Assembly (NCBI RefSeq): GCF_900168015.1
Contig: NZ_FUYR01000001.1
Span: forward strand, 1,610,943 to 1,674,942
DNA from: Daejeonella lutea
Lineage (GTDB): Bacteria > Bacteroidota > Bacteroidia > Sphingobacteriales > Sphingobacteriaceae
Reading direction: 5' to 3'
Length of the DNA stretch: 64,000 bases
The position numbers were made by a program, and so were the translations under genes. Numbering within the stretch: position 1 is the stretch's first letter; each line of letters begins with the position of its first letter. The notes under the pieces were generated by a model, which saw only the letters and a list, made by a program, of their open reading frames with translations, did not search any database and was not told the origin of the DNA. This document shows, in pieces, positions 21,000 through 27,642 of this stretch.

Positions 21000-21252
21000 T
21001 AGTATATAATCTGTCTTTTATGGCTACAACCCGCTTGATGCTATCCTATGACTATCAATTGTTTTAAATATGCTGTGCGCCGGCCACGGGTTGCATAAAA
21101 ATAATAAATCGAAATAATACGCAATTATAATAAACATTTCGAAACCATTTGCTTATTCTTTAAAAAAAAATAAGCCTTGCCCGGCAAGCGGTTTTATAAG
21201 CAATTTTTAATAATTTTTCCTTATTTTGCATTATCACAAAAGACGTCATTAC
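21000..21252. promoter_or_regulatory. divergent control region between glpD and the GlpR-like regulator
   Basis: 253 bp of AT-rich DNA with several symmetric elements: TCGAAAT (21109-21115) with ATTTCGA (21136-21142); TTGCTTAT (21149-21156) with ATAAGCAA (21196-21203); GCTTATT (21151-21157) with AATAAGC (21169-21175); and CTTGCC with GGCAAG around 21182. TATTTTG at 21222-21228 resembles the flavobacterial -7 element for the regulator gene. The paired sites are candidate operators for the DeoR-type regulator; which one is bound is unknown. Confidence 0.5.
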
Positions 21253-22017
21253 ATGAGTAGTTTAGCCGAAAGACACCAGTATATTATTAAAAAGCTTCAA
21301 AAGGAACAGTACATAAATGTGGTAGACCTCTGCGCTGAACTAAAGGTTTCGTCTGTAACGATTCGAAAGGATTTAAAACTTTTGGAAGATAAGAATCTGC
21401 TATTCAAAATTCACGGAGGAGCAACCCTGAGCAATCCATATACAGTCGACCGCTCAGTAAACGAAAAAGAGAAGCTTCAGTCTAATGAAAAATCAAGTAT
21501 AGGTCAGGTAGCTGCGGACCTGGTCAAAGAGAACGATTCTATCATTATTGCTTCTGGCACATCTGTGCTGGCCTTCGCCCGCTGTCTTCCTGTAAACCTG
21601 AACCTTACCGTAATCACATCGGCATTAAACGTGGCCATGGAATTATCACGGCATCCAAACACCGAGGTTATTCAGCTTGGCGGAATGATGAGGAAAAGCT
21701 CAACATCTGTAATGGGCCCTTATTCTGAAAATATCCTAAAGGACTTTTTCTGCAATAAACTATTTCTTGGTGTTGATGGAATCGACCTTGAATTCGGCCT
21801 GACTACGACGAATATGATGGAGGCACACCTGAATCGCCAGATGATTAGCGTTTCCCAAAAGACTATTGTTCTTACTGATTCGACGAAATTCGGCAAACGC
21901 GGCTTTGGCAAGATCTGCAATATTGATGAAATCGATCATGTAATTACTGATAAGGGCATTTCTGATCATACAGTGAAACAACTGGAAAGTATGGGTGTGA
22001 AGGTTACAATCGTCTAA
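21253..22017 (+). CDS. DeoR/GlpR-family transcriptional regulator
   Basis: A 254-residue repressor-type regulator. Start ATG 21253 (MSSLAERHQYIIKKL) is preferred over an upstream TTG at 21226. Residues about 5-57 form the DeoR winged helix (LCAELKVSSVTIRKDLKLLE, followed by KIHGGATL), and about 75-230 the DeoRC sugar-phosphate sensor domain (SGTSVLAFAR, LGGMMRKSS, FLGVDGID). It is divergent from glpD-glpK-glpF. By analogy with GlpR, glycerol 3-phosphate may be the effector (inference). The TyrA-like gene starts 40 nt downstream on the same strand and may be co-transcribed. Confidence 0.88.
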   Translation: MSSLAERHQYIIKKLQKEQYINVVDLCAELKVSSVTIRKDLKLLEDKNLLFKIHGGATLSNPYTVDRSVNEKEKLQSNEKSSIGQVAADLVKENDSIIIASGTSVLAFARCLPVNLNLTVITSALNVAMELSRHPNTEVIQLGGMMRKSSTSVMGPYSENILKDFFCNKLFLGVDGIDLEFGLTTTNMMEAHLNRQMISVSQKTIVLTDSTKFGKRGFGKICNIDEIDHVITDKGISDHTVKQLESMGVKVTIV

Positions 22018-22057: not shown

Positions 22058-23317
22058 ATGAATATTGGAATTATCGGCCTTGGTGATATGGGCTGCATTT
22101 ACGCAAAATCATTTGCTACAGCCGGCCATCGCGTGTACGGATGTGATCTTCCTCATCGCACTGAGCTGCTCAAGGCTGAACTTGAACCTGCGGGGATAGA
22201 AGTACTTGCTGACGGAAAGGAAGTTTCGAGAATTTCCGATGTAATTTTTTACTCGGTGGAAGCAGAACGAATTGCAGAGGTAGTGCAGTTATATGGTTCT
22301 TATACGAAACACGGAGCCATTGTCGCCGGACAAACGTCCGTTAAACACCCTGAAATTGAGGCATTTGAAAAATTCCTGCCCAAAGACGTTCACATCATTA
22401 CCTGCCACTCTCTGCATGGGCCCGGTTTTGATCCTAAAGGGCAAAAAATGATTGTCATTCCTCACCGGACAAGTAAAGAAGCATACCAGCGAATGACAGA
22501 TCTGCTATCCGGACTGGGTTCCGTAATAAACGAAATCCCCGATTATCATGAACACGATAAAATCGTGGCCGATACCCAGGCTGTTACCCATATGGGTTTT
22601 GAAAGCATGGGGACAGCCTGGAAGGAAGCGGGATTTTTTCCATGGGAAAATGCTTCTTACCTCGGCGGTATAGATAATGTGAAGATCCTGATCACTCTCC
22701 GCATCTTTAGTTACAAAGCCCACATTTATGGCGGACTGGCAATACTGAATCCTTATGCACGCCACCAAATAAAACGTTATGCTGAATCAGAATCTGAGCT
22801 GTTCAAGCTTATGATAAAGGAGGAAGAAGCAGCATTTAGAAAACGACTATATCAGGCGCGGGATTTTATATTCGGCAAAGATCACAAACCGCTGATGCTT
22901 GATGAAAAAGTTATGCAGGAGTTTTCACTATCTGCCGGTTCGGAAAGCAGGAAGCCCAATTCACATTTGAGCCTTTTAAGCATGGTTGATGCATGGCATC
23001 ATCTTAAGGTAAATCCTTACGATAACCTTATCTGCCAGACCCCACCGTTTCGCTTGAGGCTTGGAATTGCAGAGTATCTTTTCAAAAATGAAGAGTTGCT
23101 GGAAGAATCTATCAACGCTGCTCTTTTTGACAAAACTATACGCGGCGATGATCTGGAGTTTCACTCTGCTGTTCGTGAATGGTCGTCTATAATTGTTTAT
23201 GGCGACATGGAAGGTTACAAACAACATTTCGAACAGGTTAAATCCTTTTTCTCAGAAAGACTCGATCAGGGTAGAAAACAGAGCGCAGAACTAATAAGAA
23301 AACTTCAGATGGAATAG
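22058..23317 (+). CDS. prephenate dehydrogenase of fungal Tyr1-like type
   Basis: A 419-residue NAD(P)-dependent enzyme converting prephenate to 4-hydroxyphenylpyruvate for tyrosine synthesis. Rossmann motif GLGDMG (7-12) at the very N-terminus, HSLHGP (117-122), ADTQAVTH (171-178), LRIFSYKAHIYGGLAI (214-229) and NSHLSLLSMVDAW (301-313). These blocks, and the DDLEF-REWSS region at 364-377, match in order what I recall of Saccharomyces Tyr1, much more closely than the shorter bacterial TyrA (about 280-370 residues). No ACT or chorismate mutase domain. The neighbouring genes are not aromatic-pathway genes. Confidence 0.85.
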   Translation: MNIGIIGLGDMGCIYAKSFATAGHRVYGCDLPHRTELLKAELEPAGIEVLADGKEVSRISDVIFYSVEAERIAEVVQLYGSYTKHGAIVAGQTSVKHPEIEAFEKFLPKDVHIITCHSLHGPGFDPKGQKMIVIPHRTSKEAYQRMTDLLSGLGSVINEIPDYHEHDKIVADTQAVTHMGFESMGTAWKEAGFFPWENASYLGGIDNVKILITLRIFSYKAHIYGGLAILNPYARHQIKRYAESESELFKLMIKEEEAAFRKRLYQARDFIFGKDHKPLMLDEKVMQEFSLSAGSESRKPNSHLSLLSMVDAWHHLKVNPYDNLICQTPPFRLRLGIAEYLFKNEELLEESINAALFDKTIRGDDLEFHSAVREWSSIIVYGDMEGYKQHFEQVKSFFSERLDQGRKQSAELIRKLQME

Positions 23318-23472: not shown

Positions 23473-26400
23473 TTGCGCTCTCTAATTAAAGTTGTTTTAC
23501 TTAGCACATTTTTGTGGCTGCTTAATTTTAATTTGAGCTATGCCCAAAACTTGTCAAATAAGGGTACAGACTTCTGGCTGGCTTATGGAAACCATGTAAG
23601 AGGCTATACGCCGGTGATTGGGCAGGAAATGATTGTCTACATCACATCCGATGTGAACACTTCAGGAATACTAAGCGTCGGGGGGACGAACATTCCCTTC
23701 ACCGTCACGGCTAATGCAATCACCAACGTAAATGTTCCTCAAGCTGCATACTTAGGAAATTCGGAAGGAAAGATCACTAACAAAGGCATCCATATTACGT
23801 CACTAAAACCGGTGGTTGTATACTCACATATCTATGACACATCAGTGTCAGGTGCAACGCTTGTTTTACCCACAAATACCCTTGGGAAGGAATACTATTC
23901 AATTAATTATCAGCAAGTTTCAAACGATGATAATTCGTTTTCATTCTTCTTTGTCGTTGCCATTGAAGATAACACCCAAATAACTATCAAACCTTCAGTC
24001 AACACCTTAGGAGGATTGCAAGCTGGCGTAACTTCTGCTCCGATTTCACTCAATAAAGGCGAAGTATATCAGGTTTTTGGCACTAAAACATCATCGTCAA
24101 ACCCATTTCGCGGAACAGACCTGACAGGATCAGTAATCAAATCAATATCCACAAGTAACGAAATCTGCAAAAAAATAGCCGTTTTCTCCGGCAGCGGGAA
24201 GATCTCTATTGGTTGCCTTGCTAACAATGCCCCGAACGGCCAGGCTGGATCTGCTGACAATCTGTTTCAACAGGTATATCCAACCGCTACCTGGGGAAAT
24301 TCATTTGTAACAGTACCCTCAAAGAATCGGAATTACGATATCTATAGAGTTTTTAAAAGCGACCCAAGTGCGGTAGTGAAAGTAAATGGAGCTATCATCC
24401 AGTCCACAGATTTCACAAATGGGCTGTATTACGACTTCCCTTCGCAGGTGGTTAACTATGTCGAATCAGATAAGCCTATCCAGGTCATACAATATGCAGT
24501 TACTCAGGGGAAATCGATTAACTGCGCACCTATTGCAGGGGATGTTGGTGATCCGGAAATGATTTTCCTGAATCCACTTTCGCAGACTTTAAGCAAGATA
24601 ACGATGTATTCGACACCATTGTTTCAGATCTTGCGGCACTATATAAATGTGGTAATACCAACCAGCGGGGTTTCATCATTTAAAGTCGATGGGGTTTCCA
24701 AATCAGCACTCTTTTTACCAGTTGCCAGTGCGCCCGGCTTTTCTTATGCTCAACTTGATATGAATGCGGGAACCCATAATCTTCAGGCAGATATTGGTTT
24801 CAACGCTATAGCTTATGGTTTTGGTTCAGCGGAGTCTTATGGATACGCCGCAGGTGCAAGCCTGGAATCTGCGGGATTACAGGCTCGATCAGCATCCACG
24901 AAACAAGTAAAAACAGTGGGCTGCATTAATGAAGGATATAATTTCGACGTGACACTGCCATATGAACCCACTAAACTCACTCTTGATCTGGACAACGGAG
25001 ACCCGGCTGTGCAGGTGCCTATAAAGCTCACCAAAACTGAAGTGATAAATGGTGTAACAAACTATACTTATGAGGTTATTAATGATGTAAAATTTACCAC
25101 AGCCCGACGTTATTCCATAAAGCTTATCGTCGAAAAATCTACAACCGATGGATGTGGCTCAGCCGATGAAGTAAATCTTGATCTGGACATGCAGAATGTC
25201 CCCCAGTCTTCATTCACCTCAGACATACAACAGTCCTGCATTTCATCACCCATCACATTTACAGACGGAACAGTCTCAAACGGAACCACAATCGTAAAAT
25301 GGTATTGGGATTTTGGTGACGGTATAAAAGAGATAAAAACTACAGGTGAACCTGTGCAGCATAGCTATGCCGCTGCAGGAGATTATAAGGTTTCCCTGGT
25401 AACCGAAACCGATGGAGGCTGCCAATCCTCGCCTATAACGCCCTTGGCAATTCACATAAATAGAACTCCGGATGCATTATTTTCCGTTCCGGCTCTAAAG
25501 TGTGAAACACAGGCCTTTCAATTTACAGATAAATCCGTCGCCAATGAGGGATCGATCACGAAATGGAACTGGGATTTTGGGGATGGAAACACGTCGACGG
25601 AACAAAATCCAGTTCATTCGTTCTCTAAAGCAGGAACATATGTTGTAAAACTCATAGTGCAGACCGATAAGGGCTGTTTAAGTAACGAGTCTACACAGAA
25701 TGTTGTCGTTAATGCAATACCGGAAGTTGCGTTCGAAGTTCCTGACTTCTGTCTTGCAGACGGAGCCGCTCAATTCACCAACAAAACGACAATCGCTGAC
25801 GGCACTGGCTCTCAACTTACCTATCTGTGGGATTTCGGTGATTCACAGGCAAATGCACAGCGTCCAAATACTTCCACACTTAAAGATGCTTCACACCGCT
25901 ACACCAAGGCCGGCCGATACACTGTCAGGTTGACCGTTAAATCGGCTAATGGCTGCGAAGTTACGATCACCAAAATGTTCGTTGTAAATGGAAGCGTTCC
26001 AAAAGCCGATTTCAACATAAAAAATCCAGGCGCCTGCAGCAATGGGCTGGTAGAATTCGAAGACAAAGTGGTAGTCGATCTCGATGAAGAAGTCACAAAG
26101 ATCGAATGGATTTATGATTTCGCCAACAATCCAACGGTTAAGGAAATTGATGATGAGCCTGCAATCCGGGCAGCACCTACCCGTGTTTATTCTCATAAAT
26201 ATCCAACATTCACCTCGCCTGCTTCAATGACCTACCAGGTCAGGATACTTGCGTATACAGGGGGAACCTGTGTAAGTATCATCACTAAAAGCGTGACTGT
26301 CTTGGCAGTCCCGTTGGCAGAATTTGACCTGCCCCCGGCTTGTTTGACGAACGGAACGGCTGAATTCAAGAATAAGTCGAGCATCGCCGGAACAGGTCTG

Positions 26401-27642
26401 ACGCTAAGTTATGCGTGGGATTTTGGTGACACACTCTCGACACCTCAGAATCCAAATATATCAAGTGAAACTGACCCTGCGCATAAATATTCAAAAGCTG
26501 GGGATTACATCGTGAAGTTAGTGGTTACTTCTTCAAGTGGATGTTCAACAACCATAATCAAAACCCTTACAGTTGCTGGCAGCGTGCCTGATGCCGCATT
26601 CACAGTTCTTACTCCGGATAAGCTGTGCAGCGATGCACCAGTAATTTTCGAAGATCATACAAAAATCGCTTTCGGGGAAGTCACGAAAATAGAATGGTAC
26701 TATGATTATGGGAACAATCCCAGCCTGAAATTTACTGATGATAACCCGGCAAAACGTACTGACTCTCCTCGGCAGTATACCCATTCGTACCCGATGTTCT
26801 TCAGTCCTGCGACTAAAACAGTCATTGTAAGAATGCTGGCTTTTTCTGGAGCAACCTGTGTGGATGAAGAATTAGTCTCGGTGACATTACATGCCGTACC
26901 GCGTGTCCAATTTGACCCAATCCCTGACATCTGCTCTGACTCGCAGCCGATTACTCTCACTCAGGCTAAAGAAATACATGGTGTGTTAAGTGGTAAGGGA
27001 ACCTATACAGGCAAAGGCATAACCGCAACTGGTCAATTTAGCCAGGCAATAGCAGGCTTAGGGACACACACCATAACTTATACTTTTGTTGCAGACAATG
27101 GCTGTGTTGATTCCAAAACACAAACAATAACTGTTAATCCAATTCCTACTGCAAGCCTTGGTCCGCCGCTGTTTGTGCTGGATGGAGCAGACATCAAGCT
27201 TCCTGCAGTGGTCACTGGTAATATCATATCATATAAATGGAGCCCGGCTCTTTATCTGGATAACGATGATATTCTTGTCCCTGTAGCTAAACCTACTGAT
27301 GATATAACATACACCCTGACTGTTACCACGGATAAAGGCTGCATAGCCACAGCCAGCGTATTCGTCAAGGTTCTCAAAATGCCTGAGGTCCCTAATTCAT
27401 TCACACCTAATGGCGATGGTGTTAACGATACCTGGAACGTAAAACATCTCGAATTTTACCCCGGGGCAACCGTCGATATATTCAATCGATACGGTGACAG
27501 GCTTTTTAAGATCGAAAATTATCTGAAACCCTGGGATGGCACCTTTAATAGCTCAGAGTTACCGGTAGGTACTTATTACTATATCATTAATCCGAAAAAC
27601 GGGCGAAAGGTTGTATCCGGTTCGGTTTCAATTATACGATAG
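23473..27642 (+). CDS. large PKD-repeat surface protein with T9SS type B sorting domain
   Basis: A 1389-residue exported protein. The start is TTG 23473; an in-frame TAA at 23467-23469 excludes anything longer. Signal peptide 1-24 (SYAQ). Residues about 28-440 resemble the IgGFc-binding-protein N-terminal domain (KGTDFWLAYGNH). Multiple PKD domains follow (about 575-1140) with WDFGDG and WDFGDS motifs, two of them in a tandem duplicated block. The last 85 residues are the gliding-motility-associated CHU_C domain (PNSFTPNGDGVNDTW), the type IX secretion signal. It is likely a cell-surface adhesin; its ligand is unknown. It is monocistronic and convergent with lepB. Confidence 0.88.
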   Translation: MRSLIKVVLLSTFLWLLNFNLSYAQNLSNKGTDFWLAYGNHVRGYTPVIGQEMIVYITSDVNTSGILSVGGTNIPFTVTANAITNVNVPQAAYLGNSEGKITNKGIHITSLKPVVVYSHIYDTSVSGATLVLPTNTLGKEYYSINYQQVSNDDNSFSFFFVVAIEDNTQITIKPSVNTLGGLQAGVTSAPISLNKGEVYQVFGTKTSSSNPFRGTDLTGSVIKSISTSNEICKKIAVFSGSGKISIGCLANNAPNGQAGSADNLFQQVYPTATWGNSFVTVPSKNRNYDIYRVFKSDPSAVVKVNGAIIQSTDFTNGLYYDFPSQVVNYVESDKPIQVIQYAVTQGKSINCAPIAGDVGDPEMIFLNPLSQTLSKITMYSTPLFQILRHYINVVIPTSGVSSFKVDGVSKSALFLPVASAPGFSYAQLDMNAGTHNLQADIGFNAIAYGFGSAESYGYAAGASLESAGLQARSASTKQVKTVGCINEGYNFDVTLPYEPTKLTLDLDNGDPAVQVPIKLTKTEVINGVTNYTYEVINDVKFTTARRYSIKLIVEKSTTDGCGSADEVNLDLDMQNVPQSSFTSDIQQSCISSPITFTDGTVSNGTTIVKWYWDFGDGIKEIKTTGEPVQHSYAAAGDYKVSLVTETDGGCQSSPITPLAIHINRTPDALFSVPALKCETQAFQFTDKSVANEGSITKWNWDFGDGNTSTEQNPVHSFSKAGTYVVKLIVQTDKGCLSNESTQNVVVNAIPEVAFEVPDFCLADGAAQFTNKTTIADGTGSQLTYLWDFGDSQANAQRPNTSTLKDASHRYTKAGRYTVRLTVKSANGCEVTITKMFVVNGSVPKADFNIKNPGACSNGLVEFEDKVVVDLDEEVTKIEWIYDFANNPTVKEIDDEPAIRAAPTRVYSHKYPTFTSPASMTYQVRILAYTGGTCVSIITKSVTVLAVPLAEFDLPPACLTNGTAEFKNKSSIAGTGLTLSYAWDFGDTLSTPQNPNISSETDPAHKYSKAGDYIVKLVVTSSSGCSTTIIKTLTVAGSVPDAAFTVLTPDKLCSDAPVIFEDHTKIAFGEVTKIEWYYDYGNNPSLKFTDDNPAKRTDSPRQYTHSYPMFFSPATKTVIVRMLAFSGATCVDEELVSVTLHAVPRVQFDPIPDICSDSQPITLTQAKEIHGVLSGKGTYTGKGITATGQFSQAIAGLGTHTITYTFVADNGCVDSKTQTITVNPIPTASLGPPLFVLDGADIKLPAVVTGNIISYKWSPALYLDNDDILVPVAKPTDDITYTLTVTTDKGCIATASVFVKVLKMPEVPNSFTPNGDGVNDTWNVKHLEFYPGATVDIFNRYGDRLFKIENYLKPWDGTFNSSELPVGTYYYIINPKNGRKVVSGSVSIIR
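25720..26898 (+). repeat. tandem duplication of a 196-197-residue PKD module
   Basis: Within the PKD protein, 25720-26310 and 26311-26898 encode two consecutive modules of 197 and 196 residues with the same order: a PKD domain with WDFGD, a KAGxYxVxL strand, then a second domain containing VTKIEWxYDxxNNP and a CVS/CVD end. A third, shorter module begins at 26899. Similarity is also visible at nucleotide level, so the duplication is moderately recent. Confidence 0.75.

Follow-up and report, generated by a model that had tools for sequence, protein, structure and literature searches.

Tyr1, the prephenate dehydrogenase known from yeast, is widespread in fungi. Three other kinds of TyrA invite comparison with it: the ordinary TyrA of Bacteroidota, a protein of ~280 aa described by NF006307 or by PF02153 with PF20463; the E. 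coli-type chorismate mutase/prephenate dehydrogenase (NF008400); and the prephenate dehydrogenases of the PRK08655 models (NF006407-NF006411), which we take to be the archaeal type. In the E. coli TyrA, His197 is the catalytic base and Arg294 serves prephenate binding.

Here we analyse a window of 64,000 nucleotides from Daejeonella lutea, a member of the Sphingobacteriaceae (contig NZ_FUYR01000001.1, positions 1,610,943 to 1,674,942), that encodes a protein of the Tyr1 type. The protein family is known; the points of interest are its occurrence in bacteria, its site in a ribosomal operon and its mutual exclusion with ordinary TyrA. We propose, with a probability of about 0.8, that a Tyr1-type prephenate dehydrogenase was gained, most likely once, at rpsJ-rplC, that the native aminotransferase-TyrA pair was lost, and that the gene later came to lie near glp genes.

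Results

The gene starts with ATG and runs intact over 419 codons and a stop codon, with no internal stops, to give a product of 419 aa. Its position, its upstream neighbour and the landmarks used below are:

21250..22017, forward strand: DeoR-family regulator (GlpR/AgaR-like), the upstream neighbour, thought to stand outside the gene's function
22058..23317, forward strand: Tyr1-type prephenate dehydrogenase gene, from the open reading frame and a full-length match to the presumed yeast Tyr1
22076..22093, forward strand: GLGDMG dinucleotide-binding loop, codons 7-12, from Rossmann-type Pfam models
22406..22408, forward strand: His117 codon, the counterpart of His197 in E. coli TyrA by alignment
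22700..22702, forward strand: Arg215 codon, the counterpart of Arg294 in E. coli TyrA by alignment
22712..22714, forward strand: codon of Tyr219, the substrate-specificity position (222 of plant enzymes), counted from the aligned Tyr
22874..23314, forward strand: residues 273-419, the C-terminal third, which yeast Tyr1 has as well; helical throughout in the whole-protein model and with no Pfam domain

The GLGDMG loop is a Rossmann motif that binds the dinucleotide. All the blocks quoted in a preliminary description of this DNA occur in the translation, and the spacing of 40 nt that it gave is right, the DeoR/GlpR-type gene ending at 22017. The protein appears to be monofunctional, as neither a chorismate mutase nor an ACT domain was found by Pfam at E up to 1. 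It hovers around the cut-off of PDH_N (26.5 bits), with 25.1 bits in the Pfam search and 27.8 bits in the genome search. The PDH_C dimerization domain PF20463 gave no match in the window protein at Pfam E up to 1, and is weakly matched by 7 of its 39 relatives (best E 0.0052). Fungal contamination of the assembly can be rejected, given the bacterial genes on both sides, some of them common to relatives, and the 106 distinct copies from bacterial assemblies. We also reject the nearby glp and DeoR genes as functional partners: the surroundings of the gene vary among relatives, few of which retain the DeoR-family gene. Inspected by eye, the 1389-aa product of a downstream gene (23473-27642) looks like a secreted protein with PKD-like repeats, and its C-terminus resembles that of gliding-motility-associated proteins.

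Every comparison with S. cerevisiae Tyr1 in this work used one sequence that we presume to represent that protein. BLASTP aligned it with residues 3-416 of the window protein at 198 identities in 423 columns (47%) and 388 bits, a score that rules out a chance match. Identity to this sequence is 50% (135/271) over residues 1-272 and 43% (63/147) over residues 273-419, which bears out the earlier claim of a likeness over nearly the whole length, C-terminal third included. The bacterial copies are 44-49% identical to the presumed yeast Tyr1 and at least 58% identical among themselves, and any transfer must therefore be old. The same NCBIfam model, one of the PRK08655 prephenate dehydrogenases, ranks first for both proteins, with 81 bits for the window protein and 78 for the presumed yeast Tyr1, far below its cut-off in each case. 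The next best group, NF008400, gave the window protein 55.3 bits against a cut-off of 273; at that score, and with no mutase domain, it is not a bifunctional chorismate mutase/TyrA. Nor is it an ordinary TyrA: PF20463 is unmatched, and NF006307 gives 23.4 bits, far under the cut-off of 295, where an ordinary TyrA of Sphingobacteriaceae scores 362.8. Among the NCBIfam models for bacteria or archaea, none spans the full length of the window protein.

Within Bacteroidota, the type is concentrated in a single family. The samples searched comprised 151 genomes of the family, 400 of the order, and 395 each for the class and the phylum. A full-length Tyr1-type gene is present in 81 of the 151 Sphingobacteriaceae genomes, in 12 of 25 genera, and in 242 of the 400 genomes of the order, all Sphingobacteriaceae among the matches listed. 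Matches at E up to 1e-10 occurred in only 11 genomes of the class sample, and full-length copies in only 9 of the phylum sample, again all Sphingobacteriaceae; the remaining matches in the phylum are at most 34% identical and end by about residue 280. A profile that included the presumed yeast Tyr1 returned the same 9 of the 395 phylum genomes, plus two partial matches. A scan of genome contigs with peptides derived from the window listed 80 of 128 relatives. Where the titles of these 80 specify a genus or family, it is Daejeonella, Pedobacter, Mucilaginibacter, Sphingobacterium or Sphingobacteriaceae; the others give only Bacteroidetes or Sphingobacteriales. The collections of plasmids, phages and viral contigs held no full-length relative. 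Plasmid carriage was set aside with TyrA-like matches in 5 records and in 1 record, at 29% identity or less and over under half of the query, and carriage by phages or viruses was rejected, no relative being confirmed in phages or viral contigs. In titles and the opening parts of abstracts we recognised no description of a Tyr1-type protein in Sphingobacteriaceae; earlier genetic evidence may exist, since a GapMind supplement may name a Pedobacter enzyme.

The Tyr1 type and ordinary TyrA exclude each other. Taking as strong ordinary TyrA a PDH_N match at E 1.6e-27 or better, the 151 family genomes divide into 81 with the Tyr1 type, 46 with a strong ordinary TyrA, none with both and 24 with neither (Fisher's test 2e-21, a value to be read knowing that related genomes are not independent). 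The window's genome has a single PDH_N match, the gene described here; this answers the question, raised in the preliminary description, of a second, typical tyrA, and we reject the presence of one. One genus (g19) is mixed by species, with ordinary TyrA in G123, G128, G133 and G138 and the Tyr1 type in the others, which counts against the proposed history.

The exclusion extends to a second gene. Ordinary TyrA adjoins an aminotransferase gene in seven of the eight loci read. This partner has a match of at least 63% identity in 7/8 genomes with ordinary TyrA (one of them the query's own), in 0/13 with the Tyr1 type and in 0/3 with neither; the tested genomes of the last two kinds have only aminotransferase paralogues of 30% identity or less. 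Four of the eight loci with ordinary TyrA have the pair next to infB, whereas none of the 12 infB loci read in Tyr1-type genomes has it. The aminotransferase (loci L190, L191, L192, L193, L194, L195 and L196) best matches models of LL-diaminopimelate aminotransferase, at 417 bits for a cut-off of 507. One study suggests that Echvi_0124, numbered just before the TyrA Echvi_0125, is a diverged DapL, and reports DapE as missing in a Pedobacter strain (PMC7311316). Loss of the partner aminotransferase may bear on lysine synthesis too.

Other routes to tyrosine have to be considered. Of 13 Tyr1-type genomes tested, nine, among them the window's genome, have a phenylalanine hydroxylase-like gene that could be an alternative source of tyrosine, a point against the proposed replacement. 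It gave no match in the other four (G002, G018, G020 and G022), where the Tyr1 type would therefore be the only known tyrosine route. The same gene occurs in 8/11 genomes without any TyrA and in 4/8 with ordinary TyrA. Three genomes (G134, G010 and G023) had no Tyr1-type gene, strong TyrA or phenylalanine hydroxylase match; these are possibly tyrosine auxotrophs, users of unknown routes or incomplete assemblies.

Many Tyr1-type genes share a site in the ribosomal operon, with rpsJ on one side and rplC on the other. Among 14 loci from Tyr1-type genomes, six have both flanks (G001, G002, G011, G018, G021 and G108), six have one and two have neither. For 80 named loci the corresponding numbers are 27, 13 and 40; the 40 without either flank, which count against the proposed history, take in short contigs as well as other positions, such as that of Daejeonella near glp genes. 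In two ordinary-TyrA genomes (G007 and G029) the gap between rpsJ and rplC is 309 and 338 bp; the junction without insert was seen in these two genomes only, which tells against the proposed history. In the other six of the eight ordinary-TyrA genomes rpsJ was not beside rplC within the fetched stretch, two stretches ending at a contig end. Five of seven genomes with no TyrA of either type have an insert of 2.2 to 3.7 kb at this junction with the Tyr1-type gene absent, as expected after secondary loss.

The junction has other contents. A short protein (L238:3201-4001), with no Pfam family over the cut-off, is often encoded beside the Tyr1-type gene there; it occurs in 42 of 65 clustered neighbourhoods and is kept in four of the five genomes with a geneless insert. 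Most genomes read at the junction (L293-L308) have varied inserted genes or an rpsJ out of reach, and rpsJ-rplC looks like an insertion hot spot in Sphingobacteriaceae.

The gene of the window is indeed, as the preliminary description had it, away from other aromatic genes: the nearest found is pheA, on contig C2, the window being on C10. This pheA matches PF00800 above the cut-off and is followed by a DAHP synthase/chorismate mutase-like gene, named after its best NCBIfam models, all under their cut-offs, and then by putative aroA and aroC, assigned by eye. The succession of pheA, the DAHP synthase/chorismate mutase-like gene and the aroA-like gene recurs in 22 of 23 genomes, irrespective of their TyrA type; only G123 departs from it.

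The origin of the gene can be approached through its phylogeny. In two trees the Tyr1 type stands apart from ordinary bacterial TyrA and groups with the presumed yeast row, at 100/99 and 100/100; the grouping with ordinary TyrA that would have spoken against a Tyr1 identity appeared in neither. With this one fungal row, the yeast and bacterial group lies far from ordinary TyrA and from the chorismate mutase fusion. The preliminary description had also raised the case of bacterial homologues that are common and ancestral to the fungal ones: they are common, within one family, and their ancestry was sampled by the one presumed yeast row and by Bacteroidota genomes. Its two options, a transfer between domains of life and a rare family common to both, may each hold. 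Judged by eye, the gene tree largely follows the species tree. This agreement, and the rpsJ-rplC site common across genera, favour a single gain, after which the gene was inherited and in places lost or moved; the placement suggests one old insertion. A point against this is the species tree, which has no outgroup root and has supports of 59 and 20 at the boundary between Tyr1-type and ordinary-TyrA genomes.

The Sphingobacteriaceae look like the recipient, because the gene takes the place of a native one and is absent from those sister families that were sampled; possible donors are a fungus, another eukaryote and an unsampled bacterium. A fungus as donor to the ancestor of the Sphingobacteriaceae clade would refine our main reading and not oppose it, and we regard this as a serious if tentative possibility. 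It would fit the 47% full-length identity to the presumed yeast Tyr1, the lack of full-length copies outside the Sphingobacteriaceae in the samples of class and phylum while Tyr1 is widespread in fungi, and the missing native aminotransferase-TyrA pair, which makes that family look like the recipient. Yet the comparison is with one presumed fungal sequence, the genome sampling is of Bacteroidota, and the root shifts within the yeast and bacterial group: with 17 outgroup rows, 4% of bootstraps have the bacterial rows as one side of a branch, and with 4 outgroup rows 64% do.

An unsampled lineage, be it another bacterial phylum or another eukaryote, could instead have been the source for fungi and Sphingobacteriaceae, or have shared the gene with them, and this too deserves real, if less than even, credence. 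Such a source agrees with an old transfer, as indicated by the identity to yeast (44-49%) relative to that among bacteria (at least 58%), and with a genome search set within Bacteroidota and a contig scan, using window-derived peptides, that listed 80 of 128 relatives. It is harder to reconcile with the plasmid, phage and viral collections, which held no full-length relative, and with the lack of a full-length NCBIfam model for bacteria or archaea.

The opposite direction, with the bacterial line as donor to an early fungus, is improbable. By itself, the figure of 4% would speak for yeast among the bacteria, the pattern expected of such a transfer, but long branches make the placement unsafe, the value rises to 64% with fewer outgroups, and the gene is confined to one sampled family, where it replaces the native enzyme.

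The predicted structure and the active site bear on the reaction. An AlphaFold2 model of the window protein (39 rows; mean pLDDT 86.4) has the TyrA fold from residue 1 to about 270; residues 273-419 folded alone reached a pLDDT of 50.9. Foldseek placed TyrA enzymes of soybean, Sinorhizobium and Streptococcus near the top of its list, and a search of a viral structure library returned chiefly Rossmann-type matches. VIA-align gave Z 22.8 against 4wji (rmsd 3.4, 269 aligned) and Z 20.5 against the Haemophilus chorismate mutase/prephenate dehydrogenase (rmsd 3.1, 267 aligned). Rossmann oxidoreductases other than TyrA score nearly as high (PYCR1, Z 20.9), and the fold by itself is therefore no proof of the reaction. 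In the alignment with E. coli TyrA, His117 falls on His197 and Arg215 on Arg294, and both residues are invariant in the 106 distinct bacterial copies. On this homology and these conserved active-site residues, the enzyme is likely to oxidise and decarboxylate prephenate to 4-hydroxyphenylpyruvate with NAD(P)+.

The residue at the specificity position is Tyr in 105 of the 106 distinct copies and Ser in one; its equivalent in E. coli TyrA, counted from the aligned Tyr, is Gln298. According to a study of plant enzymes, position 222 decides between prephenate and arogenate, an acidic residue goes with arogenate preference, and almost all members of clade II, fungi included, have Gln or Asn there (PMC5681985). 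The non-acidic Tyr219 predicts prephenate as the substrate, though Tyr is unusual at this place, and the lack of the Asn or Gln that almost the whole clade is reported to carry there counts against our main reading. That the enzyme prefers arogenate or another substrate is accordingly worth stating but unlikely: the Tyr of the 105 copies and a published account of yeast TyrA, which calls its specificity uncertain and includes a program's prediction of arogenate (PMC1173090), lean that way, but the window protein lacks the acidic residue that goes with arogenate preference (PMC5681985).

Discussion

Our results suggest that an enzyme of core metabolism was exchanged in part of the Sphingobacteriaceae. 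The Tyr1-type enzyme, monofunctional as in yeast, would turn prephenate into 4-hydroxyphenylpyruvate using NAD(P)+, from which a general aminotransferase would then make tyrosine. Its gene would have been gained, most likely once, in the ancestor of the line of Daejeonella, Pedobacter and Mucilaginibacter. It probably entered between rpsJ and rplC, with the native aminotransferase-TyrA gene pair presumably lost, and in the window's genome it would since have been relocated beside the glp genes. A bolder version holds that a fungal gene entered the ancestral ribosomal operon of the family once, displaced TyrA and its partner aminotransferase, and is now the only TyrA-type enzyme in much of the family, its exclusivity read in 151 genomes and its presence in 242 of 400 genomes of the order; we advance this version with reserve.

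If true, this would be an unusually clear case of gene replacement over a vast distance, in which a core biosynthetic enzyme of bacteria gave way to a type known from fungi, with a common insertion site and the loss of the native gene pair. It also carries a warning for annotation. With ~25-28 bits for the TyrA Pfam model and scores far under every NCBIfam cut-off, the tyrosine step in these bacteria could be missed by automated reconstructions.

Set beside the known systems, the window protein aligns over its full length with yeast Tyr1, the catalytic His and Arg included; the bacterial copies are shorter by ~13 residues at the N-terminus and about a dozen at the C-terminus, lack a loop of 6 residues, and have Tyr at the specificity position where the presumed yeast Tyr1 has Asn. 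Ordinary Bacteroidota TyrA has the TyrA fold and the His/Arg active-site residues in common with it, and presumably the same pathway step, but is without the C-terminal third of the Tyr1 type. The E. coli type agrees in the catalytic residues, its His197 and Arg294 aligning with His117 and Arg215, but has a chorismate mutase domain, whereas the window protein starts with the Rossmann domain. The PRK08655 dehydrogenases provide its best NCBIfam matches (residues 5-267, 81 bits), but these end at residue 267-274 and are all far under their cut-offs.
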